Positions 13,914 through 43,363 of a stretch of 64,000 bases of DNA are shown in pieces (positions within the stretch are counted from its first letter, which is position 1; each line of letters begins with the position of its first letter). Where the stretch lies: NCBI GenBank assembly GCA_032158125.1, contig JASKOT010000020.1, positions 264,652-328,651 on the forward strand, written 5' to 3'. Both the position numbers and the translations under genes were made by a program. The DNA comes from Papiliotrema nemorosa. Its lineage: Eukaryota > Basidiomycota > Tremellomycetes > Tremellales > Rhynchogastremaceae. Below the pieces are notes generated by a model. It was not told the DNA's origin. It did no database searches and worked only from the letters and a program-made list of their open reading frames with translations.

Positions 13914-16667
<2,754 letters not shown>

Positions 16668-19825: not shown

Positions 19826-22800
19826 ATGCCTGAACCGCCTTCATTCTTGCGGCTCAGGCCAGCTCCTGCTCCCCCCTCGACAGATCGAGACGTCTCTCCT
19901 ACAACGCACGACGCCAATGTCCTGTCTCGACTGGGCGCTCTCTTCACATCCCACTCGCCAGTTGATGGCACACGCAATGCTCCGTGTCTGGATCGAGCGC
20001 GGACGCTACCGCCCCCATCCCCACCCATCGTCTCGCCGGGAACGTTTGTGGACCGAACCGCCATCAAGGTTTTGGTGGTCACCTGGAATATGGGGGACGA
20101 GCTGGTGAGCCCTTTGCCTGAGCGCATGTCAACAATGCTGAGTTGCAGCCCAAGGGAGATTTGACGGTCCTTCTGGGCGAGGTCCCGCAGTATACGGCTC
20201 CTGCATCTAAAGCTGAATCGATTCCTTCCCTTCCTGTCGAGAACAAACACCCATACCACATCGTCGTTGTCGCCGGTCAAGAATGTCCTACCGACTCGGG
20301 AGTCCCTCGTGGTCTCGCGGGAGGAATCATGAAAGGCGTACATAGTCGTCACTCTCATCGCAAGGAAAAGGAAGAAAAGAAGAAGGCTCAGGAGGACGAG
20401 CAGTCTAATAGTGGGCCGAATCCCATGTTTGAATTCAGCAGAGAAAAGGGGGAATACCTCGAGACGGATGAGGATAAAGACTTGGATGAAGAGTCGAGAG
20501 CGCCCACGCCTTCATCCACACCAACTCCGACACCGAATACACCTACTTTGGCAAAGCAGCCTCACATTACCGGGCAGAAGGGATGGAGTACAATGCTTGA
20601 TGGTGAGACATTCGTCTTCTTCTATAGCCAGACTGACCCAGTAGACTGGTTCTGTGGACCTGTTCCCACGAGCAATACCATCCCGGGCGGGTCTATCTCC
20701 TCCCAAGACGCATCCTCCCTGCCAAATACAACATCCCCATCACCGGTTCCCATGCTTCAAACCCCGTCCGCTCCGGCTCTGATGCGGTCCTCTACTGCCC
20801 CTGGGAGCCTTTCGCCTACTCAACCTATGCATTTCCCCGAACGATACCTCGCCGCACCTACCATGGCATTCGCCCATTCTCCTCTTGCCCGATCCGCTTC
20901 GTCGTCGGCATCTGATTCATCAGCTTCCTCGCCTGATGAAGATGTTCAAGGAGCCTTTCGTTTCCCTCCACCCGCTTCGCCTGGATTGGAGAGGAGAAAG
21001 GGAGCTTCGTTGCCGATCAAGAAAGATAGGCCAGCTATCGTCATTCCCAACGATGAGCCGGAGAGAACCAGAGACGGCGGAAAGTGTTACTTGCATCTTG
21101 TCAAGGAAAGACTGATGGGGATGTATCTCTCCATATACGTGTACAAGGGATGCGAACACCTCATTCAAGGTGAGATTTAACCTTTTCAGCAGAGGCCATC
21201 GCAGCTGATCAAAGGTGTGGACAAGGATTTTGTCACGGCTGGTCTAGCGGGTGGTCGACTGGGCAACAAGGGTGGCATGTGAGCGCATACTTAGTGGTAC
21301 AAGTCAAAGCTAACGTGTCAGCGGTATCAGTCTAAAGCTCGCCGATCACCGTTTCCTCTTTGTCAACTCGCACCTTGCTGCTCATTCTGCTAGAGTCTCG
21401 GCTAGATTGGCCAACATCCAGAAGATCAAGCAAGAGTTACGGCTTGACTGCTTCTTGCCAAAAGATGATCCTAGAGCAGCTTCTGAGGGTGCGTCGGCAA
21501 TTCATTCTGTTTCCATTGCGCTTATGCTTAGATCTGACGGATCGTTTCGATTCGGTGTTTTGGTGTGGAGATCTAAATTTCCGTCTCGATCTGTCACGAC
21601 TCCACGCGGAATGGCTGGTGGAGCAGAAGAGTAAGCGGCGCGTGCCGGTGTGGTCGGGACCTCAGCTGATTCTTTAGAATACTCGGAGGCTCTAATGTGG
21701 GATCAACTAGGAGCAGTGATGCGTGACCCGACAAAGAACCCTTTCCCTGGTTTTGAGGAAGGAACCATCGACTTTCCGCCTACGTTCAAATATGATGTGA
21801 GAAATAGGCACCTGCAGACTCTTTAGGCTGACATTCAGGTATGGCGCTCTGTCAAAGCGACCAATCGAGAATTGAGGCGAAGTCTTCGTCGTCGCGGTAC
21901 GTTGGACAGCAAAGCCCGAAGGCCCTCTGCAGTCGAGGGATCGCCTCGCATCGGAGCGACCAAGGGCCTGTCGCATGTGCCGGAGGTCGATGGTGAAGCT
22001 CATGAGGAGCTTGCAGAGGAAGTGCTGGAACCTGCCCTCGGACCTGAGAGGATGAGTGATGAAGATACACGGACGATCGCATCGCGTCGGTCTTTCGAGT
22101 CGACCGCTGGTGGCTACACTTCGGGTGGACATTCGACTGCGGGTACAGACGCTGAGGACGAAGACTATCCGAAATTGATCGATGCTTCGGCATATGGATC
22201 CCGCCACAAGGCTTTGGAAGTAGCGCTCAAGGAGAAGACGAAGAAATTCCTAAGTCTTGTCAAGATGGACAAGGCGTTGTCTTCCTCCCCATCTCGTAAA
22301 CTCCTATCGGCGTCAAAAAGGCTCAGGGAGAAGCCCTCCCAAGAGTTTGATGCTAGTTCTAGGCGTACATCATTGTCGTCCATAGCTTCACTTGACCCGC
22401 CTACACCGATTACGGATCAAGGAGCACCGCGCTTGTCATCCAGCACGGATAGAGCCGTTCCGTCGCCCCTGGGTGGGCCCAGACGTCCTTCTGAAGCATC
22501 GGCTTTGTCTTCGTCTCCGAATCAGCCTGTCGCCAGGAGGTTCTCGGCGTTGAAACGGAGTATTTCTGGTCGATCGAGCATACAAGACGGACGGAGTGGA
22601 GACTCGCACGAGCTGGGCCCTGAGGATATCGATGATAATGTGGATTACCGTGAGGGAGTTTACGACTCATCGAAAAAGCAGCGGGTGCCCAGTTGGGTAA
22701 GATCATAGTCGTACCCTGAATGCGAAAGCTGATGACTAGTGCGATCGGGTACTGTGGAAAACGCAGGTAGTACCTGATCCCGAGGAGCACGATATATCTC

Positions 22801-23882
22801 GGCAATTATCCCACGATTCAGGCAGAGACCGTGGATCTCGCGCATTCAACCGTCTATCGCATGCTTTCACCAACCTCGGAGGACATTTACGACTGTCCAT
22901 GACTAGGACAGGCTCAATTGACCCTCACGACAGGCCAAACCTTCATCTAAACAAATCTCTTCCTTCCCAGCCATTGCCCGAACCCGAGCCAGCCGAGACT
23001 TTGGTCGCTTCGCCAGAAATCAGTCCATCGTTACAGGCTACTTCCAATGCAGAAAACGGGGAAGCGCTGGTACCAGCTCCTCGGCGGGCAGCATCGGCGA
23101 AGTCACCTACACAAACGCGACTTCTGACTCGATCACGATCAGGTTCCAATGCCCCTCACCCCCTTCTTGACGCAGACGTAGTCACTGCAAGTCCGCCTGC
23201 TTTCCCGAAAATCACCTTTGATCCTGCGCTTCCCGCACATGCCGATCGATCCTCCCAAAATACTACGATCTTTGGTCGACCTAGGGCCAACTCTGACAAT
23301 GTCGCAAGCAGCTCGATATCAGCTATAAAGCGATCTCTCAGCTCATCATCCAACAGAGCAATATTAAACGATTCTCCTCCTCGGCGCATCGGTCAGAGGA
23401 GCTCATCAGGTGGATCCTTGAAGATCATCACCGATGCACGAGCCACCGAGCCGCCAAGTCGTACAAACTCCACTCCATTCGTCAGACCTGCAGCACCTCA
23501 GCATCTATCCACGGGTCAGATCAACCTTCACACGCACGAGGATAGAAATTCAATCGTCAAGTTTTTCAAGGAGATTCCGACTTGGCTCCATGCTCGCTCG
23601 ATATCGCATGCGGAGCCTGCACCTTCTTTACGCCCGCCTCAACCAGACTTTGCTGGACCGAAGAGGCATCTCAAGGGAGAGGTCGAGTGTCTGCATTACG
23701 GGACAATAGATGATAATGGGTAAATACTGATTTAAATTTGCAGAATCTGAGCTGACACATTGTAGAATGAGACAGCTGGAGGGTAGATCGTAAGCTCACT
23801 GCTACCACTCATCCTCTATGAGCTGACTTGCAGTGATCATCGACCGGCCATTTTCGCCGCGGCAGTGTACGTAGGTGATTGA
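19826..23882 (+). CDS. Inositol polyphosphate 5-phosphatase with long disordered insertions
   Basis: The catalytic IPPc motifs appear in order but widely spaced: VLVVTWNMGDEL, VVVAGQECP (about 20270), YLSIYVYKG, GGRLGNKGGI (about 21250), NSHLAAHSARV, VFWCGDLNFRLD (about 21560), FPPTFKYD (about 21780), PSWVDRVLWKT (about 22690) and EGRSDHRPAIFAAAV at the end. The NxH of SHL, the GDLNFR aspartate and the SDHRP histidine are the hydrolytic residues of this DNase-I-like fold. Between motifs lie three Ser/Pro/Arg-rich insertions of roughly 250, 250 and 300 residues. There is no Sac1 domain, so it is not a synaptojanin (Inp51-53) type. It should remove the 5-phosphate from phosphoinositides or soluble inositol phosphates. 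The start at 19826 and the stop at 23880-23882 fit the frame, and the last exon is short. Confidence 0.88.
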
Positions 23883-24376
23883 GAACGGAAGAGCTGTTGG
23901 AGGGAGTGGCGGTGCGCATGAGTCCCGTTGTGAGAGGTGAACCGCGGTCATACCACGTATAATTAGAGATAGAAGCGCCTCAAGCGCACAATGTGTAGCC
24001 ATAACGACCTGGAATGCACGTGCATACCATGTGATTCGCCTGCAAGATACTATTCATGATGTGTTTCATTACAGACATAAGAGTCATGCTTTCCATATTA
24101 TCCATTACGAAGCGAGAGTCTCGCGAGTTTTTTTCCATGCTGCGATACTTTTCGGGTGGAGGCCAGAGTGCGAGAGAGAGATTCAGGTGGGGTAGCTGCC
24201 TTTAATTGATGTGTTTTCCACATCCAGTGGTCGAGTTGGGGGATTCTAGGTATAAAGTTGGGCCACGAAGTAAAGTTATACGTGGTCGAGTCAAGTCGTC
24301 AAAGTTCGTCAAAGTAGGTCATTAAGAGCGGCTCCTCGTCCCGTTCCTTTCGAGCAGTCACTGCAATTGGGGCTTA
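23883..24376. other. Convergent intergenic region
   Basis: Lies between the ends of the phosphatase (+) and the KEN-box gene (-). I see only 3' flanks with T-rich tracts near 24120 and no plausible coding frame. Confidence 0.5.
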
Positions 24377-25257
24377 TCAAGTGCTGCATGGGTCAGTCAC
24401 AACTCCCGCAGAGGTGGATAGACCTACCTGAGGCCCGGAATTCACCTCTTTGCGGTAGTGAACCCTTCCGGGATATCCCCACTACCTCCATATGCATCCG
24501 TCACATCCGCCAGCACCGAGATACTGGTCAATCTCTTCAAATCCTTCGTCTTTTTGACAGTCTTCAATGGCGACGAAGCTTTGTCGACGAAGACGTCACT
24601 TAGGGGCCTCGTAGCTCCGGTGAAGATTCGGGTTTTGGATCTGGTTCGAGAAGCTGGAGAGTCGACGACTGGTTTGTTCTCCTTGTCTTCTTCATTTACA
24701 GGCACTGCCTCTTTCTTGGGCGTAGATACCGTTCGACCTCGTTTCGCCGGGGAGACTTTCGGGTTGGCGATTTCGGACTTGGACGGAGCTCGAACGGAAA
24801 GGGCAGAAGCTGGTTCGGCCGTTATGCGAGAAGGTATGGCTGACTCCGTTGGCTCCTGATACACCTCGAAAGCTTTCTTCGATATCGTCTTCCGGGCTGC
24901 ACTGGAGGCGGCTCGTGGTGCCTTGGTCGAGGGTGCCAGTACTAGGCTCGAGCGCTGTATGCTGGTCTGTCTAGCCTCCAACCCCGCTTTCAACCCTACT
25001 TTCCCCTTCTCTGTCACGACATCTTTCTCGCTCAGCTTCTGTTTGAGAGAAGCATCGCTAGAGAGTTTTGTCGAGGGAGCCTTGGGCTGTAAAGCGGTCA
25101 AGGCTTGTCGAGTGGAGGACCGTTTTGTAGGTGAGGCGGTTTTGGTCGCAGAGGGTTCAGTGATCTTTGTCGGGGCCGTATAGGCCGAAGCGGTATTTTG
25201 GACCGGTGAATCCGCATAGATAGCAAAGATGGCTCCTCTTTTCTTCGTTACGGGCAT
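24377..25257 (-). CDS. Basic disordered protein with a KEN box, possible APC/C substrate
   Basis: One large exon from the ATG at 25257 encodes about 271 residues; a probable last intron (donor GTGAAT at 24443, acceptor at 24385) changes only the last few residues and moves the stop to 24377. The protein begins MPVTKKRGAIFAIYADSP, is rich in Lys, Ser, Ala and Thr, and has no folded domain that I can see. It carries a KEN box (NEEDKENKP, near residue 198), several S/T-P sites, RTRSKTRIF, and a PLSDVF segment like the degrons and cyclin-type motifs of mitotic regulators. This pattern occurs in securins, Acm1 and sororin-like proteins, and I cannot tell which, if any. Its function is therefore unknown. 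It is divergent from the dehydrogenase gene, with 366 bp between starts. Confidence 0.6.
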
Positions 25258-25623
25258 TATAGATGGACCAGGGGAAGATAACAGAGGGTCGTCAAGACGA
25301 GTCCGTCGTCAGGTTGATTTCAGGACAAGGTGGAGTTGGGCGGAATAGAAAACACACGCGCCTGATTGACACAAACAACCGCCCTTGAAAAATAGTGACG
25401 TGGCAGATAACAGTCAGGTGGAAGTATGAAAGTGATAACGATCTGAATGGGATCTCGGGACTCCGGACCGGCACATTGGTTACCCGTGCATAACCGCTTC
25501 CCCTCCCATCTCATCTGGCTTCCTCCATGCTATATCTTAGACCTGCATGAAGTTTTCGGCTCATCAAAGCTAACGCGATCTCCGCATTCCATCACCACTA
25601 TCATCGCGCCCTTGCAGAACACA
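25258..25623. other. Divergent promoter region
   Basis: 366 bases between the starts of the KEN-box gene (-) and the short-chain dehydrogenase (+). It holds CT-rich leader sequence before 25620. No RNA gene or clear TATA box is seen. Confidence 0.5.
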
Positions 25624-26658
25624 ATGTCGACCCCCCGAGTTATCCTTATCACTGGCGCATCAGGAGGAATCGGCCGAGCTTGCGCTGTCCACCTGTCTGA
25701 AGTCTTCCCGGGACCGAGTGACGACAGGCCGTTGGTACTCATTTTGTCTGGTCGAAGGCAATCGGAACTCGAAGCTACCGCTCAGAAATTGAGACAGGGG
25801 ACAACGGCAGAGATCGTCATTGGAGATGTGAGCAGTGATGAGGATGTAGCGAGGATGTTTGGGACAATCAAGGAGAAGTACGGAAGGTTAGACGTAGTCT
25901 TCAATGTGAGTCTACAGCTCGGACGCAACAGAACTCCTCACCGTCCACTAACAGATCGAACAAGCTGACATTCAGAACGCGGGTGTCGATTTGCTGAAAG
26001 GCATCCCGTTAGAAGAGGCAGACACGGCCAAGTTCAGGCAAATCCTCGAAATCAATGTCATGTCTGCGGTACTAGTAGGTGTCCACAATTGGGGGTCAAT
26101 TCTCAGAACGCTGATATCCTCCAGTGTACGAAGGAAGCGATCAAGATTATGAAGGAGCAATCACCACAAGGTGGTCGAATTATCAACAATGGCTCAATCT
26201 CTGCTTCTTCCCCACGACCGAGTACGTATCGCCTTCTCGTTTCCGCGTCTCCGTTATCGAGATTTGCACTCGGATTCGCTTGTTTTCAGCATTGTGCTGA
26301 TCTGATCAGACTCCGCCCCATACACAGTGTCCAAGCACGCCATAGCGGGTCTCACCAAGTCCACCTCTCTCGACGGACGAAAGTACAAGATCACCGCGAC
26401 TCAACTGGATATCGGAAACGCGGCGACAGACATGGCCGCTTACGCTTCGGCAGGATCTACACAGGCGGATGGCAGTATTCGACCAGAACCCCTGATGAAT
26501 GTCTTGAATGTCGCAAAGACGCTGGCGTTTGTGGTGGGATTGCCACAAGAAGCGGATGTATTGAGTATGGAGATCATGTGAGTGGGCTGCTGCGGGTCAA
26601 TGAATCTGGTCTGACCTCATACAGTGCCGCTGGAATGCCTTATATCGGCCGAGGATAG
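25624..26658 (+). CDS. Short-chain dehydrogenase/reductase (classical SDR)
   Basis: The ATG at 25624 opens [17 protein letters not shown], the Rossmann glycine motif TGxxx[12 protein letters not shown] follows, then NNAGVD (joined over the intron at about 25903-25977), the [11 protein letters not shown] strand with the catalytic Ser, and YTVSKHA with the YxxxK pair (about 26320). The Ser, Tyr and Lys triad and the NNAG Asn are all present, so the enzyme should be an active NAD(P)(H)-dependent oxidoreductase. The last exon ends [10 protein letters not shown] before TAG at 26656-26658. Four or more short introns were placed by frame. The substrate cannot be read from sequence; the short C-terminus and NNAG form resemble yeast-type uncharacterised SDRs. 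It stands just upstream of the three-copy orphan family, which may be coincidence. Confidence 0.87.
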
Positions 26659-27082
26659 ATTGAACCGATGGCTGGACATCACGCACTTGCCGACTCGGGA
26701 GGGTGGCAATTTGGCCAGAATTCGATGACCTCGCAGATGCAGTTGTTTCGCACTCGTTTCAGATCGGCGAGCCAGAAGCAAGCAAGATAAATCTATTTTC
26801 ATCCTTTGAAACGCTTCTTTCATGCTGATCAAACCTCGCAGAACATGACGAACAAATGATTATCAACAGCACGTATCCCCCTACTTTTGGGCGCGCTCCG
26901 TGTAACATCTCCTAAACAGAATGTCAAAGGAAAACCACCCGAAGCTCATTCACACAACGGCCATGCTTCTCTCTCAGGTTTCTACAAGCTCGTATGCGTG
27001 CTTGTCTCCCCCACTTTACCTCGTCATTCGACTGTCGACATTTGTTGAGCACGCCAGGTAATAAATCGCTGACTCCTCGATC
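26659..27082. other. Intergenic region, promoter of orphan paralogue A
   Basis: 424 bases of 3' flank and promoter. A CCCCCT tract lies at 26877-26882, similar to C-rich tracts before the other two paralogues. No coding frame is convincing. Confidence 0.45.
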
Positions 27083-28137
27083 ATGAGCTTTCTATCTCTT
27101 GCTGATGACACACTAACTGTCGGATCTCTACCTTTGCCTCTTGTCAAGTCACTCGTCCTAGGGGACATCACGCAATTCTCAGGTCAGTTTCTCTCGGCTC
27201 GTAGTGCCTCGTGTTGGAAATCAGCTGATCTTCCAGAGGCACATCCCACTATTAACTCTGTCACTGACAAACATTGGGCCGTCTTCAAAAACCGATTCAA
27301 TACAAAATCTTTTGCTGAACTCTCGGGAGGCACGAGTGATGCTTTCAAGCTGCGATGTTCGGCTATCACCGATGATCAGGAGACGGCACTTGCTGAGACT
27401 CGCAAGCTGGTTCGAGGCCTATTGTCTCAGAGCGTGGGATTGAGTAGTAAGGCTCACGAAAACCTCGAGGCGGAAGAAGACATTGAGGTTGCAAAGGAGA
27501 GTATTCGAGAAGTCCTCGCCAAAGCTGCTTCTACCGAGTCAGACAAGTTCTGGGGAGACCATCTCGCCGATGCTCGATTCGGGTTACACGCAATCCATCC
27601 TGGGCCGGAAGCAAACGACCACATCAAGCAATTATTTGGATCCTACATTCGTGCATCTCCGGGACTTCGTGCGTACTTTTGCTCTGATCCAATCGGCCTC
27701 CGCACTCACGGTATGCAGTCTTGCAGAGTTTGAATGCGAATACCACCGGAGTCACGTCGCAAATCTCGCAATATGTGACCGAATCTGGCAAAGATGAGGT
27801 TTTATGGTCCATGCTGCGCGGCAACTGGGCAGAATCTGTCCGAGACACATTGAAGACTGAGCTTGGCGTGGATCTCAGAGCCATGTCTTCAGACGCAGCC
27901 CTTGCAGTTCTACAAAGCGAAGAGGGAATCAAAGCGGCACACTGGGCGAGCGGTGCAGTGATCAGCGCTGCAACGAGCTTCGCCAAGCTAGCGGAAAATC
28001 AATCCGAGGGCCTCTCGCCTGATGCACCTAAAACAGGTCTGGACATGCTACTAGCCAAAGTGAGCGAGGTCGAATCCCTGGTGGCGCAAGGCAAGCTCAA
28101 ATCTTACAAGAACGCGAAGGATTCGAGTTCTGCTTGA
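27083..28137 (+). CDS. Orphan tandem family, paralogue A (316 aa)
   Basis: I do not recognise this family. Three exons (27083-27182, 27237-27668, 27719-28137) make 316 residues beginning MSFLSLADDT. Both introns are phase 1. The N-terminal part has a W-x-x-F/Y-x-N/R-R-F-N motif (HWAVFKNRFN), the middle has FWGDHL, and the last exon holds the best conserved block: an LxGNWAESVRDTLK-like stretch, then ELGVDLRAMS, AVLQSEEGIKAAHWA and a terminal KLKSY. It is mainly helical-looking, soluble, with no signal peptide or membrane segment. It is the first of three tandem copies on the same strand. The ATG chosen matches the MSxxSLA start of the other two copies. The role is unknown. Confidence 0.75.
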
Positions 28138-28811
28138 GCGTGTCTTGGTCTGACCACTGAGAATAGGGTGAGAGTCAAGAGTTGGAGGGGTGTTTCAGTA
28201 TGACTTACATGATGTTTACGAAGTACTGTTGACGAGCGATGCGATCTGGTGGAAAATTTGACCACCTCGTCGTCTCTGAGGCATTCATTGTTGCACATAG
28301 GGAGCCGTCAGCTTTTCAGCGAAGTATGATAGCATTTCGCTTATCTCGCAGCTGACTTTCCGATCAGAACACCTCACAAGGAGCAGTCTGTACTCCACTT
28401 AAAACCAGCGCAAGGGGCGGAGGCGGAAGTCCTTTCGACCTCTGGTTGAGATCGCGCCGAGCCGTGACTCATGTCCGGTTTTCCCTCCCCGTACTCACCG
28501 CAGAATCACATGGGCCCATGATCTTTTGGCGCGGGAAACCCCACGGCTTTCACTCTGCAAACTTCCCTGCCGGTGACATGCATTCCATGAAAGGTGGGAG
28601 ACTGGTACATCCCTTGATACGCATCCCTTACGTCTTCTCGAATATGGTCTACACGGCCAGCCCACCGCTCTTGCCCCTCACAATCCCTCGATCGTTTTAT
28701 ATAAGCATCCCCTCCCCCCCTTCTGCTCGATCATATCCTCCTTAACCAATCTTCCACCCTATCTCAAACTTATACACTGACCAATATCGAGCTACTCAGT
28801 CGACCAGTACA
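28138..28811. other. Intergenic region, promoter of orphan paralogue B
   Basis: 674 bases. A TATATAA box lies at 28698-28704, about 110 bases before the ATG, followed by a C-rich CCCCT-containing tract (28709-28721). Upstream of that I see no coding frame or RNA gene. Confidence 0.5.
28698..28704 (+). promoter_or_regulatory. TATA box of orphan paralogue B
   Basis: TATATAA about 108 bases upstream of the ATG at 28812, followed by a pyrimidine-rich leader, the normal arrangement for a strongly regulated fungal gene. Confidence 0.5.
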
Positions 28812-29865
28812 ATGAGTTTGCTCTCCCTCGCCAATGACCTTCCTGAAACTAAACAGGAGTTTGACCTCAGCTCCTTGAGTGCGGCCTTCGTCAAGGCTCT
28901 CATTTTACGTGACGATGCGGATGGCAAGGGTATGTCCTACCCTTACCAATCAACGGATCCGATACGCTCTGCATACAGAGTTGGTGACTGCCCAGATGAG
29001 AGCGGGTCTGTGGACAATATCACCGATTCTCAGTGGGCCTTGTACACGAGAAAATTCAATGCCCAAACACAGTCGCTTCTACAGAACAGCGGACATCCCA
29101 CCACCGCCTCGAGAGCGCTCACGGTACCTCAAGTGGACGCTTTGGCAGGCTCGCGAAGCCGCGGCCGTCGTATCTTGTCTCAGAACTCCAACTTTGAGAG
29201 GGTGGAGAGCGAGGATGAGGCTAAAATGAGGATACGCAAGGCTTGGGATCTCTTTACTGACCCCGCGCAGGATTTCTGGATCGAGCATCAAAGAGCTGCA
29301 CTGGCCGACGGCAAGGACGTGTTGACCGAATTGAGCGATCTGCGACACATGCAATCGATCTTCGACTCATTCACTCGAGTCGACGCAGAAGCTTGTGAGT
29401 TCCTCATACACTTGATTGATCGTGCGACGATTCCTGACCAGTCAAGTCGAAAGATGCCTGATACAATCGAAGCATACAGACCCAACGTCTGTTGCTTCCC
29501 TGACACCCAGGGATATCTCAACTCTGATAATTTGGAACAGAGTCCGAGATATCTGGGCGGCTTCACTGAGAAGCGACCTCAGAGCGTCGCTTGGAATTGA
29601 TATCCGTACGCTTTCCCAGGATCAAAGAATCGCAGTGCTCAAAAGCCTGGAAGGAGTCCGAGCGGCTCACTATTCGTGCGGCTCTGCCCTCCCTACTGTG
29701 GTGGATGTGGCCAAGCTCGTCAGAAGTCGATCGACATCTTCCAACGAGGGCTCTGACCTGCCCATGTCCACCTCAGCAATGGTCGAGGCGAAATTCGCTG
29801 AAATGGAGGAACTGACAGTCGCAGGCAAGCTCTCGAGCTATGTTCAGCAGACGCTCTCTGTATGA
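28812..29865 (+). CDS. Orphan tandem family, paralogue B (311 aa)
   Basis: Second copy of the unrecognised family. Exons 28812-28929, 28996-29394 and 29447-29865 give 311 residues starting MSLLSLANDL. Shared landmarks are DSQWALYTRKFNA, DFWIEHQ, the FERCL start of exon 3, then SLRSDLRASLGIDI, AVLKSLEGVRAAH and the ending GKLSSY. The third-exon acceptor is placed at 29446 because it restores the FE(R/Q)C frame seen in copy C; using the nearer AG at 29440 leads to a stop within six codons. Exon 3 is 419 nt, as in copy A, and exon 2 is 399 nt, as in copy C. No known domain, signal peptide or membrane segment is visible. Confidence 0.75.
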
Positions 29866-30388
29866 TTCCGCATAGCAAGGGCGAAGAGATGTTGGCATCG
29901 TGGTGGTGGTACATACCCACGAGATGTTCATAGCCAACGTCTTGTAGCTTGGTGATGTAATCTGGTACAGTACTCGTAGAGACTCATCAACAGGAGTGGC
30001 GAATATCCTGTAGTTGTGTCCTTGGTGAGGATCCGGCAATGATCCTCGCTACACTATCTTTTCAGGAAAGAGCTTTGTGGCGCTGATGTGTGACCTTCCC
30101 TTCATCTGACACAACGCGGCGAGCCTTGTCATTGAGATTCCCCCCCTCTCTTTTCCCTCGCCCGAAGCAGCAGGTAGGCGAGACGAAACGCTACTGTCCC
30201 TCAGGGAGTGAAAGTTGTCACAGTCGCCTCCTTTTACATCAAATCTGTCGACTGATGCTCTGTGCTCCATCTTCTGGGCCATGCATACATATAATACTCG
30301 ACCTCATTGGCCACTTCCTCCTCCCATCACTCGAATTCTTCCTCTTTCATATAGCCTTTGACTTCAAATCGCTATCTTGCACATCATC
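29866..30388. other. Intergenic region, promoter of orphan paralogue C
   Basis: 523 bases with a C-rich CCCCCCT tract at 30140-30147 and a TATAATA element at 30290-30296, about 95 bases before the next ATG. No coding frame is supported. Confidence 0.5.
30290..30296 (+). promoter_or_regulatory. TATA-like box of orphan paralogue C
   Basis: TATAATA within an AT-rich stretch about 95 bases upstream of the ATG at 30389, followed by CT-rich leader. Position parallels the box before paralogue B. Confidence 0.4.
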
Positions 30389-31389
30389 ATGAGCTACTTT
30401 TCTCTCGCCGATGCGACCGCCAACATTTGCGCCCTGCATGAAGACACGGTGAAAACCCTCGTCTTGGGGGATCACGAGTCCCGGAAAGGTTTGTGAACTC
30501 TGTGTGGTGCTGAATTGCTTATGATCAAACAGATGTTGAAGGCGGAATCTCCGATAGGCAGTGGAGAGTATACTCCAACAGATTCAATGCGAACACCGCA
30601 TCGGAACTCCCGGACCCAAAGGATCGGATCATCACCTCGGACAAGCTCACCGATGCACAATCTTCTGCCCTTGCCCAATCCCGCCAGAAAGTCAGATGCC
30701 TGATTTCAAACAACTCCTCGATACAGTTCGAAGAGGAAGAGGATGACAAGTCGCAAGCACAATTACTCGAGACTTGGAAGCTCATCCCTGATCCGTTGAA
30801 GGACTTTTGGGAAAAGCATCTTACCAGTGCCCTTGTAAAGGACGAAATGTACAGGCCCAAGCCCACTATGGACATGTTCAACCATCTCAAGACCGTTCTC
30901 AAGTCGTTTACCCACCAAGATCCCGAAAACTGTACGTATCACATTCATGATAATCTTCAGCTGCCGCCGTCACTGATGGCATCAGTCGAGCAATGTATGC
31001 GCGACTCATTGAGACAACACTCAACCACACTGGTCTTGTCCCGAGACTCGCAGATTTTAGCGTTCTGGGACATCACCGAATCTACCTGGGCAGAGACACT
31101 TCGAGGGGAGCTCAAAACTTCTCTCGGGGTCGAGCTCGGGAATTTGCCTCATGACCAGCAGATTGCCGTCTTAAAAAGCTATGAAGGGGTTGAAGCTGCA
31201 CAATTTGCCAATAGCGTTGCTCTGCTTCGTACAGTGGACTTTGCGAAGCTTGCCGAGCGCTATCACAAGACTGCAAGCGACGGGTCTGTGCCACCGAAAT
31301 CCGCCTTGAGGATGCTCAAGGCCAAATTGGCCGAAGTCGAGCGCTTGAGATCGGAGGGCACGCTCTCGAGCTATGTACCCACACTCTGA
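30389..31389 (+). CDS. Orphan tandem family, paralogue C (300 aa)
   Basis: Third copy of the unrecognised family. Exons 30389-30488, 30533-30931 and 30986-31389 give 300 residues starting MSYFSLADAT. Shared landmarks are ISDRQWRVYSNRFNA, DFWEKHL, FEQCM at the start of exon 3, WAETLRGELKTSLGVEL, AVLKSYEGVEAAQFA, DFAKLAERY and the ending GTLSSYVPTL. Exon 1 is 100 nt as in copy A and exon 2 is 399 nt as in copy B. An EEEEDD stretch follows the first third. The copies differ at many positions while keeping frame and architecture, so they look like functional, diverged duplicates rather than recent or dead ones. Function unknown. Confidence 0.75.
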
Positions 31390-31806
31390 GTGATCTTCTG
31401 AAGGGACATAGTCGCCTTGTATATAAGGTTGATGCTGACACACGAGACAGTAACTGCGATTTTTACGCCATGAATCTGGTGAAAACTTGCTTCGCTGCTT
31501 GCAGGTGAACTCATCTCTGCGTGCGTTCGGCCACGAGTGACACACACACTGAGATGTACACACACTGATGAGACGCATGGATGTAGCAGTCCTCGGGGAT
31601 ATCTACCTGCACTTGCGGCAAGACAGCAGAGATACGGCGGAGTGATTTTACCTACGAGATCCACCCATGAAACTGTGAAGGAGCACCGTGCATCAGACGC
31701 GACTCGCTCCTACCCCATCGAGATGACTACAAAGAGCATCGAGATTGACCACTGACATCTCATCTTCGCCCATTTGACAGTCGACATCTTGCAGCGACCG
31801 GAAAGG
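31390..31806. other. Intergenic region after the orphan cluster
   Basis: 417 bases of 3' flank and promoter. A possible leader-intron end (CTGACATCTC to TTGACAG) lies at 31752-31780. No protein-like frame is evident. Confidence 0.4.
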
Positions 31807-33605
31807 ATGGCCGCTCCTATCGAATTCTTCTCCACCCGACCGGTGCCCAAAGCGCTATACGAGTCGGCCTCCCTCCTCGTTCACAATTGCCCTCACGATG
31901 ACTGGGCATCCAACCTAGCCTGGCTTCGACACATCATCACCAAGAATAGCATGATCCTTCTACCCCGGAATACGGCGGACGGCTATTCGACTGGAGTCGT
32001 CTGCAGTATGTCCGAGATGAGACACGTCGATATTCCATCACTGTCCGATTCAACCATCACGAGTATGCCACGGGAAAAGCCGATCATAGGATCTTGAGGA
32101 TGGTCAAGGATCACTTGAACAAGCACCAAGTGGAGACGACATGGTATCAGCCTGTAACGAGGGTCTCGGTCGACTTTGGTACTGAAGATCCACTCATTGA
32201 TCTGGCTGCAACTGGTCCGAATGAATCCAAGGAGGTTCACAAACTCGTCAGACAACTTCTCGCTCCGGTGTCTACTCGCCTTGTAGTCGTCGAACCCGTA
32301 GTGTTAAGGGCCGCTTACCAGTTCACCACGGACCCCGCGAAGAAGGAGAAGTGGCGTGTGCATATCAACAGTGTGTCCGTGAAGTGCCCTTCTCCCTCTG
32401 TCGCAGCTCGGATCGTCTCACTGGACCCCATCACATCCCATGCGCCCTACAAAATCACCTTCAAACTCCATCCCGAAAACATACACGTGGATTCCTGCTG
32501 CACTGTAGCGATAAGGATCACCAAAGGATACGACCTCTTGCTACCGCTCATAGAGCCTTTTTGCTATCTCGTCAGCATGATCTTCTATACCGTCATCGAC
32601 GGCAAGCACACTTTTACCCAGCCCGTCAAATCCTCATTCGATGAACACGTCTATCTCGTCACAGCGTCCAACATCTACCTCGCTTACTTCCTCACTCAAC
32701 TCCCGTACTTCCATCAAAGTCGGTTCTACTTTGCGTCTGTGGTCGGATGCAGCGGTGATTTCATTCCCAATGCTCGGCAGTCCCGTCTACTCGACGTGCT
32801 GAAAACCCATGTCGAAGCAATGGTCGATGCCCGAAAGAAAGGTGACAATCTAGGCATAGCAAACGCAAGACGACCAGCTGTGGAAGTTCTCAAGAAACTG
32901 GCTACTACCGCCGAACTTTTCAAGATCGGAGAACCGAAATTGACCGAAGCTACCGGTCGTTTGGAGCGAGTCCAGAGGGATTTAAAGAGAATGATGAGCT
33001 GTGAGACGGATATGAACCTTGAAACGATCACTTCGGCCTGTACGAGGTTGCAGAAGTCGATGGCGGAGTTGAGAGACGCAGAGATTGCGTTGGCACGGGT
33101 TGAAAAGTGGTATCGGGACACCGGGGAGAATGACCAGAAGAAGGATGAGGAGGAAGGCGAGAGCGAGGACGAGGTCGAACACGAGGAAGGAAGCGAGACG
33201 GGCATCGAAGCAGGACTAACCTTTGGCACGGCTGCGCAGGTCATTGTTCAGTCGATCCAGGACACGACGGCTGTCTTGCAATATCCCGCCCTCACCTCGC
33301 AACCTGCCCGGAGCCAGGCTCAGGCAGAAACTACAGCTTCCCGCGTTGCTGCTCCAGCAATCAAGCTCGTCCCCGCCAAGAGAGACGCTCCGGATGAGGA
33401 CGATGATGAGACAGCGCCGCTTCGGCCATATAAACAGCCCATGATGGCTGATATCACGGTGACAGCACAGCCAATCAACGGAGTGACACTATCTATTGCT
33501 CGAGCTCCTCTTCACCCAGTGACTTCGCAGCGCGCCGTGCCTGTCGAATACATGGAGAGTCTACTGAAGGCGCATAGCAAGGAGGTCGGAGCTGAGCTTG
33601 CGTGA
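31807..33605 (+). CDS. Unidentified protein with coiled-coil and acidic tail; 5' frame uncertain
   Basis: A long frame from about 31950 to 33605 encodes roughly 550 residues that I do not recognise. It starts STPEYGGRLFDWSRLQYVRD, continues through several beta-rich segments, then helical heptad-like sequence (about 32790-33100), a strongly acidic stretch (KDEEEGESEDEVEHEEG) and an Ala/Gln-rich tail with a basic-acidic KRDAPDEDDDE motif. The only good ATG (31807, MAAPIEFFSTRP) is in another frame. An intron at 31879-31949 (GTTCAC donor, AATAG acceptor) would join the two, but the donor is poor, so a frameshift or another upstream exon is possible. It directly follows the orphan triplet and points the same way. 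No nuclease, helicase or membrane signature is seen. Confidence 0.55.
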
Positions 33606-33812
33606 TCTGGCTGGAGAACTTGACTTGAGTCTGGATGTTGAACGGGGAGCGGGGAGGAGCAGCAATGAGATCCGATACAACTGTATTAGTTACGATCAGC
33701 TGTCAGTAGTGGATGACCAGGGACTTTTCGACCCTTCGATATGCACGATATCACGCGTCAAGGCCTGCTCATTCTCTATTCTCGTATATACTGCACTGCA
33801 GGTCGCTGAACC

Positions 33813-36709
33813 CTACCATTGTCGGTAGCCACCTTGGTTGTTCCATTGATTCTGAGGGGGTGGAGGTCCCCACTGGCCTTGAGGTGGTGGTGGAGGTCCA
33901 CCCTGATATCCCTGATATCCCTGGTCAAAACCTTGTGGTTGCTGGGGATATGCGCCCTGATCGTAGCCCTGTTGAGCATATCCTCCCTGGTTCTGGTATT
34001 GTGGCTGACCATACTGATCTTGCTGACCACCATACTGGTTACCTCCGTATCCACCAGGAGGACCCTGGTTATAACCCTGTTGCTGCTGGTGATGATGTCG
34101 ACCCGGGTAGTCATCGCCTGATGGTGGACCCTGGTATCCGCCGTACTGCTGCTGATGAGGGGCATCGTATGGAGGATGCGAAGGGGGAGCATAACCTGAT
34201 TGGCCGCCTTGCTCAAAAGGTGCGAGACTCGGAGGGACGTCGTTGGGTGCGGAGGAGTTGATGTCTCGCCAGGCGTGTTGTCCACCCGAGCCGAAACCCT
34301 GGTCCCATGGCTACCTCGGTCAGCATGAACCGAGCTTAATCTCTTGAATGAGCGACTTGCCTTCTTGCCCGATAGCAAGTCTTGCCCAGCGTTCAGAATG
34401 TTTGAACCAGGCTATATGTCAGCGGTTTGAATCTGACTGAAGAGTGATGACTTGCAACATGCACGTTGTGCTGAGCAAGCACCTGTTGCAGACCTCCTTC
34501 CGGAAGCATCTGGTTGTGGACGTGCCCTGAAGTATCCGAAGTGTCACCAATTCGCTTGTTCTTGTGATTCTTGACGCTATCGGCGGTAAGCCGGTTGAGA
34601 ATTTCCTGCTTGTCTCGACCGGTACCATCGATCCATGCTTTGACCTTGTCAATCATCATTCGCTGGATCTGCGCTGAACAGTCAGCAGTCTGCGTGATTG
34701 GGGTTGATTGGGGCTGGACTCACATCGACCATCATGGAAATCAGGGTGGAACAGACACTGCAGAATGTCTTCGGTGACATGCTGGGTCGGGATGCTGGTG
34801 TCGTCCCAGGCCTTGACCACAGAGTTGACGGCGTACTCTACCACTGTCTGAGCCACCTTTCCGGCGGGCTCGTTGAGTAGGAGGGCGAAATGATCCTTGG
34901 AAAGGAAGGAGTGGGTAGGATCAGAAGCATTCCAGTCGTTCCAGACCTCATATTGGTCGTGCGAGTCGATGACTGCTTGGGAAGAAACTCCCAGAGCTTC
35001 CGTGGCGGTACCCAGTAGAGGCTTAACAAACGGCTCAAGAGTGGTGATAACGAAGACCGAGATGGAGTTGGTGATCTTCTCGACGAGGCCGGACAGACCT
35101 GGGATCCTGTCGATAGTCACCTGGCATTTCAGCAGGCAGTTACCCATACAACAGCCTCATTCTGTACCTCAATCTTCTTCATGACCGAGTCTCGAAAGCT
35201 CAGAATCTTCCAGATGGTGGCATGAAGCTCTTGGGGCGACATCTGGGACGGATCGGTACCTGCGCCAGCCCGAATGTTGTTAATGTCATCCATATCTCGG
35301 CTCAGATCGCCTCCGGCTCCACCAGGCAGATCGAAGAACAGCTGTCGAAGCGTGTTGGACGAGTTGGCCTGCCCTTCAGAGGTTGATCGCGCGTTGGCCA
35401 TGGTTCGGGAAAGGTCTGACACAGAAGCCTAGGGATGTCAGCAGCGAGTCCAAGCGCGATTCAAAGCACTCGCCTCGCTCAAATGATCCGTCGCTTCGCC
35501 CATCAAAGAGTGGATGAAATCTGCTCCGCCAAAGGTACCGGTCACGATGGGGTGAACGGATTTACCCCCGGGCGCTTGAATCTTGACGTTTTGACCGACG
35601 TGCGGGAACACGTTGTGGTATCCTAGAGAGATGAGGACGAGCTCGCAGAAATTGCTGTGCGCAGAGAAGTCTTCCCTGAGGAAGTGAGTTCTGATCGATA
35701 GAGGAACTCACAAGGTGTGGAGAGCTCGACCGAGAAGTTGAAACGCTTGATATTGGTCATCCTTGTTGCCGTTAGACTTGTATAATCGCCCATAGTGGAT
35801 GCACTCTTCGAGTGTGCGTCGGACAAGGGCTTTCGAGGTGTCCCAGTGGCGTCCCTCTACACTATCAGCAGTCTTCTAAGCCTACTGATGCCTTACCGTT
35901 CGCGATGTAGTTCTTCATACCGGTTCTGCGTGTTAACATTCACGTCTCACGAGTTGGTTGCCGACTCACTGAGGATCGATCTCTAATTCCTGAGGATCAA
36001 CGGGACCTCGAAGACCGGGATGATACTGTCTGGCGTCCTCGCCATCGGCGTATCCTTTGGGGTTGTCGATGTGCTCGGTGGGGAGATAGCAGGCAAGTCG
36101 CTCTGGCGTGACCTCGAACTCTTCGGTCACGTAGCTGCTAATCAGTTCATATGCCACAGGTGTGTAGCTCACCCGTGAGCAAGGAATCCCCTATACTATC
36201 AGCTACATGGAGGAGGAGAAACGAGAGACTTACAGTACCATCACGACATTGATGATGGTCTGGAGGTTCGTCTTCTTCAGTGCTCCAACATCAACTGCCT
36301 GCCTAGTCAGTCATTGCACGATCGTATAGAGTCGTCTATGGCTGACCTGACTATAGTCTCTGAGCCTGTAGCTATTAGTTTCTGCCTCTCGCACCGCCTC
36401 GACACTCACCAGTTTCCAAAGTACACTCGCTTGACATCCAGAGGGGTGAACTTGCTACCACGAGACAGGAAGCCTCCTCCGGCAGCTTTGAACAAGGTGG
36501 CGATGATGTCCTCAATATCACCATGACGGTATGCCTTGTCCTCGAGATACGAGTATGAGGGAATGTTGCCTGATCATCAGCTGCATGTCCGGGAAAGGGG
36601 AAGGGTTGGGTGATGGGAGCGGGAACCGACCTGCTCCAAATGCTGCGACTCGAGGAGCGAATGAGAGGGCGACGAGAGCCACGAGAAGGAATACGAATGC
36701 CTTGCCCAT
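33813..36709 (-). CDS. hetC: Het-C heterokaryon-incompatibility-type protein
   Basis: Starts at 36709 with signal peptide MGKAFVFLLVALVALSFA and AFGAGN just after it, the mature Het-C N-terminus. SKFTPLDVKRVYFGNWLRDY (about 36400), GFLAHG, ATEEFEVTPERLACYLPTEH, HPGLRGPVD and GRALHTLEDFSAHSNFCEL (about 35700) are the hallmark blocks of the family; the last contains a histidine-rich phospholipase-like pattern. After a long helical region the C-terminus is Gly/Pro/Gln/Tyr-rich (33830-34250) and ends GGYRQW before TAG at 33813-33815. In Neurospora alleles of het-c control vegetative incompatibility, but the gene is widespread and its normal cell role is not settled. Many short introns interrupt it. 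It is divergent from the Num1-like gene. Confidence 0.9.
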
Positions 36710-37546: not shown

Positions 37547-40500
37547 ATGGACGACCCGTTTGGGATCCCACCCGTACCCAGTCTCCCTCGCCAGCGATCA
37601 AGGGCAAACTTGAATAATCCGATGCCCGCGCCGCCATCATCGAGATCATTGGCTTCTCAATTGAACCGGTCGCCTTCGCCCACCTCCCGACATCCTTCCC
37701 AAATGAGCGGTTTTGCTCTCCGACAACACCTCTCCACTCTGTTAGACCAGAAATCATCCCAGCTGCAGATGCTGGGTTCGATGGGTCAAGAGATTCTCAA
37801 GCAACAACAAGAACTTGAGGAAAGAATAAAGGATTTTGAGGCCGATGCGGATGATGGAGAAGACGAGGTCGGAGAAGCGACCAGATCCAAGCTGCAAGAG
37901 CTGGACAATGCAATGAGAGAATGGGAAACCCAAAATGAAGGGATGAGGCGAGAACTGGGAGGCAAGGTCAGTCGAAGCATTGTTTGCTTCGGAGTTGTTG
38001 CTGACATACAGCCATCCGGCATAATAGACGGTTTACCCAACTCCATCACTGTCCCCGCCCCCGCTGAAACCTCCATGAGTCGCCGGCAGCGAAACAAAGA
38101 GCGCTTACTCCACGATGTAGAATTCGCGTCAGACGTCGGACAGAATCTCATCAAAGAGTGCAGAAGATTGCAAGCTTTATTAAGCGATCGTGATCAAGCT
38201 ATCAGCAAACTCGTCGAGGAACGAGATAGTTGGGAGACTGAGAAGGAGGGATTGGTTGGCGCAGTGCGTGTGGCCGAGAGCAGTGTTGGTGGGTACAAGA
38301 TTGGCGGGATAGTGTATGACTGATGGGATAGAGCGATACAAGGATGAAAACTGGAATCTCGAAGTCTCTCTGCAAGACATCCGAACCAAGTTTACCGACA
38401 TCCAGGATCAGTACAACAAGACATCTGCAGAGCATGCTCGTCTATCCAAATCCCTCGTCTCGACCAGAGAGATCGCCGAAGCCCACAAGACAGAGGCTGA
38501 GAAGGCATCACAACTCTTGGAAGAGATCAAGGCTAAACATGAGACCGACATGGCCAATGCTCGAAAGGCTACCGCGGGTCTGCAGCGAGACAAGAGCGAC
38601 CTCTTGAGTGAGCTGAATGTTGAGAGAAATCGCCGAGTCAGCGCCATGCGAGCTCGAATCTCCCGAGGTGGTTCCCCTAGTCCCGGTATGCTCGACGTCC
38701 GTCAACCAGAGGAAGACGACGAGGATGTCTTTGGTAACGGCAACGAGTCACCCAAGAAACGAGGGCCCGGGTTCGATGTCAACGGTAACGCACTGTCTCC
38801 CGGTGATTTGTATCAGTCGGACTTTGACTCGCCCAATCCTACACCCTCCAAACCTGGAGATCGTGATAGGAAGCCTCTGGGTGAGATGTTTGTCAACGAG
38901 ATTGACGAGCTTCGAAGTAATCTGGAGGAGGCTCGAGCAGAAATTTCTAGAATGAAGTCAGAGGCCGAAGCAGCCAAGCTCAATCAGGGCAGGCAAACAC
39001 CGTCAGCCAGTGCCGAGAACCTCATTCAACATACTCCGGAAGGTCTTTGGGAGGAAGACAGCTCGATAGGTGCTAGAGGCAAGAATGTCAGCACCATCCG
39101 TGGTCGAAGAGGAAGAGGAAGAGGTTTCGCTGCAAGTCTCGGTCGCAAATTGGGCTTTAATCGAACACCCTCTGGTCTCAGTGCATCTCCTGGTACCCCT
39201 GCTGGCGACAAGTCATTCAATTCTGCATCATCCGGCACTCCAGACTTGCTGCGTCAGAGAGGCGCCGCTACGATCGATTCGCCGCTCAGCGCGCAATCGA
39301 TCTCGCCTTCACCTACCGCAACGCTCGACAGAGCTATCAAAGGTGGACCAAACGAAGACCTTTCGAAACCAAGCGGCGTTGGCCAGTCCAACGCACTCGC
39401 AGACGAGCTGGGCGAGGTGGAGTCCATGCCCGCGGCTGATTACATCGAGAGTGCCACCGATATGGACTGGTCAGCTGTGCAACAAACAGATGAACATAAT
39501 CTACCTGTTCCAGCACTTCTTACAACCACGGCCAGTTCTCAGTCCATCGCCTCCTCCGAGATCGAAACGCCGAAACGCGCTGTCTTCGGCGAGTCGACTC
39601 GACTCAACATTCAACAGTCACCTGCGCCCTCTGCCGGCGAGACTACCCCAACCAAGAAGACTATCGGTCTCCCCACTAGCGGCCTGAGCAGAGGTTTCGT
39701 TCGATCGCCTTCTTATGATGATACAACTACAGACGCCGAGACCGAGTATGCTGATGCTCGTGAGAGCGTGGGAACTCTGACCCCACCTCGATCCGAGATG
39801 CCTACCGACACTGAAGCATACGCGACTGGTCAAGAGTGGCACACTGCTGCGGAATCAAGTGCCGACTCTGATTCCGATAACGAGGACCGAACGAGAAACT
39901 TGACTATCAATGGCTTCGGCATGGGACTCGCTGGAGCCGCTGGAGGCTTTGCAGCCGCTCGGCAAGCCCAACGAATGGCCAGCCGAGAGCGCGTTGTGGA
40001 GCGAATCGTCGAGGTGCCTGTGGATCGAATCGTCGAGGTCGAGAGGATTGTCGAAAAGGTCGTCGAGGTACCTGTCGAGAAGATTGTCGAGGTCGAGAAG
40101 CGAGTGGAAGTGCCTGTCGAGGTGGAGAAGATCGTAGAGGTGGAAAAGATTGTCGAGAAGATTGTGGAGTTACCCTTTGAGACGATCGTTGAGGTAGAGA
40201 AGCGGGTAGAGGTCCCGGTTGAGGTGGAGAAGATCGTCGAGGTAGAGAAGATAATTGAGGTGGAAAAAGTGGTCGAGGTGGAGAAGATAGTGGAGGTCGA
40301 GAAGCGAGTGGAAGTGCCGGTCGACAGAATTGTCGAGATTGAGAAGCGCGTCGAAGTTCCGATCGAAGTGGAGAAAGTGGTTGAGGTACCTGTTGACAGG
40401 ATTGTTGAAAAGGTCGTCGAGGTTGAGAAGACTGTGGAAGTGGTCAAAGAGGTAGAAAGGATCGTCGAAGTACCCAAGATTGAGGAGCGCGTCGTCGAGG

Positions 40501-43363
40501 TCGAGAAGTTCATCGACAGACCTGTCGAGGTCATTAAGGAGGTCGAGAAAATCGTCGAGGTCATCAAACCGGTCGAAGTCGAAAAGATTGTCGAGCGGAT
40601 CGTCGAAAAGGAGATCGAGGTGCCAAAGATCGTCGAGGTGGAAAAGATCGTCGAGAAGATTGTTAACGTCGACCGCGAAGTACCGGTGACTGTTGAAAGG
40701 ACCGTCGAAGTACCCAAGATCGTCGAAGTCGAAAAGATCGTGGAAAAGATCGTCGAGGTCCCGGTCGAGGTCGTTCGCGAGGTCCCTGTTGACAAGATCA
40801 TCGAGAAGATTGTCGAAGTCGAGAAGATTGTAGAGGTGGAGAAGGTTGTGGAGAAGACTATCGAGGTACCCGTCGAAGTGGTCAAGGAGATTGACAAGCG
40901 CGTCGAGGTACCCGTGGAGAAGGTCGTCGAGCGTACAGTCGAGGTCCCCGTCGAGGTCGTCAAGATTGTGGAGAAAAGGGTCGAGGTGCCAGTCACGGTC
41001 GAGAAGATTGTGGAAAGGGTGGTCGAAGTACCCGTGGAAAAGATCGTCGAGGTCGAAAAGCTGGTCGAGGTCGAGAAACGGGTCGAAATTCCTGTCGAGG
41101 TCATCCGCGAGGTCGAGAAACGAGTCGAGGTGCCTGTCGAAGTCGAAAAGATTGTCGAAAAGCGCATCGAGGTCCCGCTTATCGTCGAAAAGGTTGTGGA
41201 ACAACGAGTGGAAGTTCCCGTCGACCGCATTGTTGAGGTGGAAAAGCTTATCGAAAACCGAGTCGAGGTGTCGGTCGACCGTATCGTCGAAGTGGAAAAG
41301 ATTGTGGAGAGGATCGTCGAAGTGCCCGTGGACCGAATCGTCGAGGTGGAGAAGATTGTCGAGAAGCGCGTCGAGGTCCCCGTGGAACGCATCGTCGAAG
41401 TGCCCGCCAAAGCCGCCGAAATGGCAGAGATTGGGTCTCAGACGGATCAGATTGCCGGAATTCCATCCTCACCCAGCTCTCCACCTGCAGATGTCGGTTT
41501 GTTCCGAGTCTTGGCCGGAGGCAACTACGATTTCCTCAAGGCCCCTCCTGCGCCAGGCGTTCTTGGAACCGCGTCTCGTCGCATCTCCGCCAACACTTTT
41601 GGCGGCAACGCCTCGGAGACCGATGGACTCCCTAGTATCCGTGCTCTCGCTCCTTCGCCTTCTATCGACGGGCTGCCAGCTCCTTCACCTACCGAAGAGG
41701 TGCCGGACAAGACTCGGCCACCTCTGTTGAACTTGCCCCCTCCACCTTCCATGCCGCCACCACCCACAGCGACGAAGAAGATGTCCACTGGCGCACCTCC
41801 TCGACCTCAGTCTCCACCTCCAGATTCGGTCACCTACCGAAGATCGCAAAGACCAGCACCCTCTTCCGCCGGTGCCGCGATCCGGACGGCTGGTGCCATG
41901 GGTCCCCCAGAGTCTGCTTCTCGACAACCATCCAGAAGCAGCATTCGAGGTCCTCCCGTCGGCATGACTCCAGGCAAAGACAACGAGGCATGGGAAAAAT
42001 CTCGTGCAAGTGTCAGGCGCAAGGCGACTACCGTGATCCCTGGTCCATCAGAGGGACGCGTCTCTGCAGCAAGTAGCATCTCGGGTCATCAGATCAACCC
42101 CAGTGTCTCATCTTTGGGCAGTGCGGCTCCACCACCTGCGTCCACCGGCGCTACGGATCCAGCCACGATTCACGCCATCACTCAGACAATGATCGGAGAG
42201 TACCTCTACAAGTACACTCGACGAGTGGTCGGTAAAGGTCAAAGTGACAACCGTCACAAGCGATTCTTCTGGATTCACCCGTATACCAAGACCCTCTACT
42301 GGAGCTCCGAGGATCCAGGATCAGGCAAGGCATTTGAGTCGTCTGCGAAGAGTGGTGAGTGGTATCCGTGTTATGGAGAGTGTGTCTGATCCACAGTTTT
42401 CATCTCGAGCGTTCGAGTCTTGGACGACTCCAACGTCCAGCCTCCTGGTTTGCATACCAAGAGTATTGTCGTCTCGACGCCAGGACGAGAGATTCAATTT
42501 ACCGCACCGGATCAGGAGAGACACGATCTGTGGATGTCGGTGAGTGTTGAGGCGGGATGGATTGAATCTGACTGACTTGGTAGGCTCTGCGATTCCTGTT
42601 GCAGCAACAGACCACTGCGCCAGTGTTGGACGATGTTGCTTCCAGCACTTCGAGATCACTACGACCATCTCAATCTTCCAACTTCCTCGGAGCAGACGAA
42701 CAGGGTCGCCTCGCTAATTCCCGATCACCAATGTCTCTACGAAGCTTCAACTCGTCTCAGCGTGATTTGACAACACCAAAGGCGAGCCATATCCGTCCTG
42801 GTTCCGCTCTTTCAGTTCGACACGGCACGGCAATGACCAAACGACATGGCACGCCTGCTTACGAGTTTATGCGTCGGCACGAGGTCCCGGCTACTATACA
42901 TGGCGGACATCGATTCAAGGGGGCGTACAAAGGTGCTCCTATAGCCGATGACTTTGATATGGTCTTGCGAGACGACGCCGATGATCCAGATACTTCGTTT
43001 GACGGTATGGACAATGTCAGGGGTGAGTGAGGGAGACCACTGGTTGATTTGCGCTAACGTTTAGCCTGCTGCGATGGCAAACATGTGGTTGGTGGGAAGC
43101 ATCATCACCATCATCACGATCACAACAATGAGAATGCCGGTCAGACGCCAGGACGGAGCCAGACACCATCGTTGCGAGCGTGGTCTACGCGATCAAGGAG
43201 GACGAGCAATGCGTCGGCCAAGCCTGGCTCGATGTTTACGGCGAGGAAAGACGTCACGGGAGGTGACAGTATGAGTATAAGGAGCTCTCTAGCTCATAGG
43301 TCGAGGTCAGTCATGGGACATCGGTCTGTTCCGGGAAGTCCTACTCCGCGAAAGGCTTCGTGA
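37547..43363 (+). CDS. NUM1: Num1/ApsA/Mcp5-type cortical anchor with coiled coil, VE-repeat array and PH domain
   Basis: Starts MDDPFGIPPVPSL. The first 350 or so residues contain the Mcp5/Num1 coiled-coil block (TLLDQKSSQLQMLGSMGQEI, KQQQELEERIKDFEAD, FASDVGQNLIKECRRLQALL). Then come a disordered Ser/Pro region, a 471-residue array of VEKIVEVPVE-type repeats (39993-41405), a Pro-rich linker and a PH domain spanning three exons: IGEYLYKYTRRV, HKRFFWIHPYTKTLYWSS, PPGLHTKSIVVSTPGREIQF and DLWMSALRFLLQ. Num1-family proteins bind PI(4,5)P2 at the plasma membrane through this PH domain and anchor dynein and mitochondria for nuclear migration and inheritance. Short introns lie at about 37969, 38293, 42354, 42541 and 43024. 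The tail contains six consecutive His followed by DH and ends SPTPRKAS. Confidence 0.9.
39993..41405 (+). repeat. 471-residue VE(K/R)IVEVPVE-type tandem repeat within the NUM1-like gene
   Basis: About 1.4 kb of coding sequence built from short units such as VEKIVEV, VEKRVEVPVE, VDRIVEVEK and VVKEVEKIV, in varying order and with no stop or frame change. Codons vary between GTC, GTG and GTT and between GAG and GAA, so the array is old or kept by selection on protein rather than freshly duplicated at the DNA level. Confidence 0.9.

Follow-up and report, generated by a model that had tools for sequence, protein, structure and literature searches.

The window analysed here is a 64,000-nucleotide stretch of the genome of the basidiomycete Papiliotrema nemorosa (GenBank assembly GCA_032158125.1, contig JASKOT010000020.1, positions 264,652 to 328,651 of the forward strand). 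Positions 27083-31389 of the window carry three consecutive genes, designated A, B and C, all on the plus strand and separated by 674 bp (A-B) and 523 bp (B-C). Judged from their sequences, A, B and C are a real, intact gene family derived from one ancestor. Each gene was modelled as three exons and two short GT-AG introns, reading from ATG to stop in a single frame (Table 1), with the splice sites placed by eye using homology as the guide. A sequence-only reading of this stretch had placed three co-oriented genes at this location and the spliced models bore this out. The length of 300 aa given there for C was recovered, while A and B differ from the earlier 316 and 311 aa, presumably through other splice-site choices.

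Kinship among the three proteins was assessed by pairwise BLASTP. Alignments spanned nearly the whole length of the proteins and scored 126 bits (A-B), 136 bits (A-C) and 167 bits (B-C), as compared to top scores of 23.5, 24.3 and 23.9 bits from 500 shuffles for each of the three pairs, confirming the common family that had been proposed. Amino acid identity over aligned positions was 33.1% (A-B), 33.7% (A-C) and 38.6% (B-C), in agreement with the earlier description of the copies as clearly diverged. The motifs reported previously were present in all three proteins with small corrections (e.g. two residues, not three, before the AA pair), namely the MSxxSLA start, W-x-x-[YF]-x-[NR]-[RK]-FN, D(K)FW-x-x-H-[LQ], LG[VI][DE], AVL[KQ]S-x-EG-x-x-AA and a [KT]-L-x-SY end. 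Invariant polar residues included D41, R84, R88, E101, D124, H129, D223, E233, K254 and E285 in the numbering of C. In A, conservation of the C-terminal region encoded by exon 3 was above that of exon 2 (Table 1). Mis-joined multiple alignments hinted at an internal repeat between exon 2 and exon 3; this candidate was not supported by profile comparison (probability 0.2%, E 0.35).

The introns measured 42 and 50 nt in A, 51 and 52 nt in B, and 44 and 54 nt in C. Half of the six change the reading frame (A intron 2, B intron 2 and C intron 1) and an intron or its equivalent is therefore needed at these places for continuous homology. The remaining three (A intron 1, B intron 1 and C intron 2) are in frame and open. 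Intron 1 of A is without a branch-point-like motif and the sole such match in intron 1 of B sits 39 nt before the intron end; because both introns are also in frame, they could in part be coding sequence. All six introns are in phase 1 and fall at alignment columns 40, 39 and 44 (intron 1) and 197, 193 and 193 (intron 2) in A, B and C, respectively. The common phase is supportive but not independent, arising partly by construction as the splice sites were chosen using homology.

To assess age and selection, differences were counted by codon position and synonymous (dS) and nonsynonymous (dN) divergence was estimated, using NG86 only. Second positions differed least (0.42, 0.42 and 0.34 for A-B, A-C and B-C) and third positions most (0.66, 0.66 and 0.61). 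For A-C, dN was 0.77 and dS 3.2, and for B-C, dN was 0.58 and dS 2.7, giving a dN/dS of about 0.22-0.24 for the two of three pairs in which it was computable; dS was undefined for A-B. Synonymous sites of the triplet pairs were approximately at or past saturation. The high dS together with the codon-position pattern argues that the triplet consists of old duplicates whose reading frames purifying selection has, on average, preserved. All three frames were intact, in agreement with the earlier description of the family as non-degenerate.

A common promoter was not detected in the 400 bp upstream of the genes, with local alignment scores of 10-12 as compared to shuffle means of 10.6-10.8 and maxima of 16-18 (200 shuffles per pair). 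Given this lack of upstream similarity beyond the shuffle level, regulation may differ among the copies. When the 600 bp upstream were scanned for eight promoter motifs, only CCCCT occurred before all three genes, and this motif is common in the window, at 0.86 per kb. A TATA box was detected before B only and a heat shock element (HSE)-like site before B and C. Diversification of A, B and C, by either subfunctionalisation or neofunctionalisation, would be compatible with these sequence comparisons.

Table 1. Coordinates of the triplet, its C-terminal exons and neighbouring features in the window.
Feature	Position	Strand	Description
Gene A	27083-28137	+	exons 27083-27182, 27225-27668, 27719-28137 (stop included); 320 aa, spliced model, one open frame
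Gene B	28812-29865	+	exons 28812-28929, 28981-29394, 29447-29865 (stop included); 316 aa, spliced model
Gene C	30389-31389	+	exons 30389-30488, 30533-30931, 30986-31389 (stop included); 300 aa, spliced model
Exon 3 of A, C-terminal region	27719-28134	+	41% identical to C exon 3, as compared to 27% for exon 2
Exon 3 of B, C-terminal region	29447-29862	+	40% identical to C exon 3, as compared to 35% for exon 2
Exon 3 of C, C-terminal region	30986-31386	+	modelled alone, mean pLDDT 67.5, better core
Short-chain dehydrogenase-matching frame	25447-25968		before the triplet
501-aa open frame	32100-33605	+	after the triplet; no Pfam match above cut-off; sole genome match is itself
Glutamine- and glycine-rich frame	33813-34310	-	
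Part of Het-C domain gene	34656-35147	-	PF07217, E 4.9e-50
1357-aa frame	38316-42389	+	Mcp5-type PH domain at the end; long mid-protein run of short V-E-K/V-E-V repeats

The number of copies was evaluated in the genome assembly (19.19 Mb, 68 contigs) and in the window. Genome searches with each protein returned 7, 6 and 5 rows, all of them exons of A, B and C. These searches yielded 6, 5 and 5 first-look candidates, all of which were scored; as only first-look candidates were scored, the copy count is a lower bound. The weakest cross-matches among the triplet exons (E 8.1e-7, 1.7e-5 and 3.4e-4) were still at E <=3.4e-4, and a further copy showing the divergence seen between A and B would thus probably have come to light. 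Scanning the 19.19 Mb for the start pattern MSxxSLA[DN], using TCN serine codons only, identified 3 sites, which were exactly the three gene starts, and the reversed-pattern control gave 0. Degenerate extra copies in the window were sought with an unfiltered hidden Markov model (HMM) search of 1382 frames; the six frames that passed the inclusion threshold all belonged to the triplet, and the best frame after these had an E of 0.63. TBLASTN against the rest of the window, triplet excluded, likewise gave a best E of 0.63. No direct repeat at the locus was longer than the 28-nt conserved start, which is present in three copies, and the interior of gene B contains one weak 20-nt tandem repeat.

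Relatives were then sought outside the locus, and we use the term orphan in the sense of the collections searched, among which annotated fungal proteomes did not figure and in which protein rows are unspliced calls. Relatives in sister fungi could for these reasons well be missed, and the lack of relatives is weak evidence. Pfam-A matches listed for four frame pieces and the three spliced proteins reached at most 14.8 bits against gathering cut-offs of 23-30; spliced A, B and C gave three families with one member each (best E 0.033, scores listed for C only). In NCBIfam, the single match of C scored 15.4 bits against a curated cut-off of 420, and the two families matched over A, B and C, one member each, had best E values of 0.009 and 0.02, none credible. 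A sequence profile search of PDB returned 0 matches at E <=10. The earlier statement that no domain fits therefore stands for Pfam-A, NCBIfam and PDB sequences, and the family, without a counterpart in Pfam-A and NCBIfam, could well merit a domain entry of its own. Searches of 5.8 billion predicted proteins with gene C, a three-protein profile and an exon-3 profile returned 1, 2 and 3 rows, all the triplet's own frames; these represent four distinct proteins found letter for letter in the triplet, start residue aside. The contig given for these rows measures 182,096 bases and is thus shorter than the one analysed here, which extends to 328,651 or beyond, so a second assembly of this organism or one almost identical to it may exist. 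The three-protein profile search scored the 7997 candidates sharing most words, and the exon-3 profile was used because short intron-free gene calls would miss the whole-protein length filter. Two scans of IMG/VR with two peptide patterns each gave 5 and 51 pattern matches, of which 0 were confirmed, two peptide patterns run against GTDB genomes gave 134, of which again 0 were confirmed, and gene A DNA found nothing in a plasmid collection. A keyword-level survey of the literature on fungal orphan and tandem genes, which cannot show the family to be unpublished, found nothing recognisable as the triplet family.

The three proteins are about 34-35 kDa and acidic, with a pI of 5.17 (A), 5.27 (B) and 5.57 (C). 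The top 19-residue hydropathy windows were 1.38 in A (starting at residue 11), 0.85 in B (residue 251) and 0.78 in C (residue 235), too low for a membrane helix, for which the usual cut-off is about 1.6. The question of an N-terminal signal peptide for secretion was addressed through these hydropathy windows. Structures were predicted for whole C and for exon 3 of C (Table 1), and both models contained helices and no strands. Foldseek searches of PDB and BFVD with the helical exon-3 model gave no match at E <=0.001, and the listed rows were mixed helical proteins. The fold search covered this model only, as the model of whole C, which includes exons 1-2, was too poor and was left out. From hydropathy and these models, the proteins look soluble and largely alpha-helical.

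Taken as a whole, the triplet is best read as a genuine, putatively lineage-restricted family of a rather ordinary sort. We give about even chances to a fuller account, in which it is an old tandem triplet under purifying selection encoding soluble, intracellular, helical adaptors or scaffolds with a split or altered ancestral role. One three-exon ancestor would have been duplicated locally to form the tandem array A, B and C, and all three copies would have been retained under purifying selection. Their products, soluble intracellular helical proteins of ~34-35 kDa, would act by protein-protein contact, as adaptor or scaffold, and not by catalysis, and the paralogues would divide or alter the ancestral role via differing expression and partners. 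In this account the helical structure is predicted, and we infer the intracellular site, the adaptor role and subfunctionalisation. Several points weigh against it. The adaptor role is drawn mainly from the helical prediction and from the absence of any enzyme signature, and the whole-C model had a mean pLDDT of 46, which is very low confidence. The upstream regions share nothing above shuffles and give no positive hint on regulation. The intron columns are close yet not identical and lie inside gapped alignment stretches, and the splice choice was guided by homology.

A, B and C might instead be highly diverged members of a described helical family beyond the reach of sequence methods, with the function of the parent family, which is a possible though doubtful explanation. 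The SNARE Habc domain (1lvf_B, 3onj), a helical-bundle interaction domain, is named among the closest kinds, with ferritin and others as further helical-bundle families considered; with the exon-3 model, of low-to-moderate confidence, no fold match rose above background. A more novel reading, which we consider unlikely, is that the triplet represents an undescribed, lineage-specific, all-helical family of unique fold, in which three ancient tandem genes share out a single cell function, either essential or related to stress. The invariant polar residues listed above could also suggest enzymes of an undescribed fold with invariant W, D, H, R and E residues as the active site; however, with three sequences only, many columns are invariant through descent, no strands were predicted and no catalytic motif was recognised, making this improbable.

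The last two explanations concern the tandem arrangement and the surroundings of the triplet. The Het-C-domain gene ~3 kb away raised the prospect of a fungal allorecognition or defence cluster, and some recognition genes feature fast-diverging tandem paralogues. However, selection among the copies was purifying where measured, the 12 neighbourhood frames scanned contained no NLR, HET, lectin or nuclease domain, and the Het-C match lies on the other strand with an apparently unrelated gene (32100-33605) between. Het-C is also widespread in fungi outside incompatibility, and we regard membership of such a cluster as very improbable. Selection for dosage, which the sequence-only reading had suggested, would fit three adjacent, co-oriented copies with such short gaps, but dosage copies are normally near identical. 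The 33-39% identity, the dS near or beyond saturation and the upstream regions no better than shuffles make a recent amplification appear unlikely, and tandem amplification for gene dosage, which retains hardly any probability, is largely excluded.

The old-triplet account can be compared to what is common in fungi, where lineage-restricted tandem gene families abound. The triplet shares with fungal orphan tandem families its adjacent, co-oriented paralogues, the lack of a recognised domain and a single locus in the genome searched. Unlike young and fast-evolving copies, those of the triplet are old and, by dN/dS in two of the three pairs, conserved. Should the family be confined to a single fungal group and yet long have been under purifying selection, it would be a compact test case for new-gene retention and division of work; if it is not lineage-confined, it would be one more unannotated family deserving a Pfam entry. 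Nothing here suggests a new mechanism, and such finds are frequent in fungal genomes.

The earlier proposal that the triplet is part of an undescribed system was not borne out, as nothing forming a module with it was seen among the scanned neighbours, nor any functional link between these and the triplet. The 501-aa frame directly downstream, a second unannotated gene, was considered as kin of the triplet, which was not supported (best BLASTP E 0.15). Further along, the 1357-aa frame resembles what we take to be a Num1/Mcp5-like cortical anchor. No tRNA was found in the window, Rfam gave no match in 24000-35000, and no break in composition was seen in 22000-36000, where GC was 0.49-0.55. A bacterial promoter scan found nothing and is uninformative for fungal DNA. 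On the minus strand upstream of the triplet, 24442-25257 encodes a low-complexity protein of 271 aa that gave no Pfam match at E <=0.1; its DKEN motif might mark it as an anaphase-promoting complex substrate. A DEAH-box RNA helicase is represented by pieces at 14760-16466, also on the minus strand, with HA2_N in 14760-15224 and with splicing-factor helicases and DHX35 as the best PDB matches of 16041-16466.
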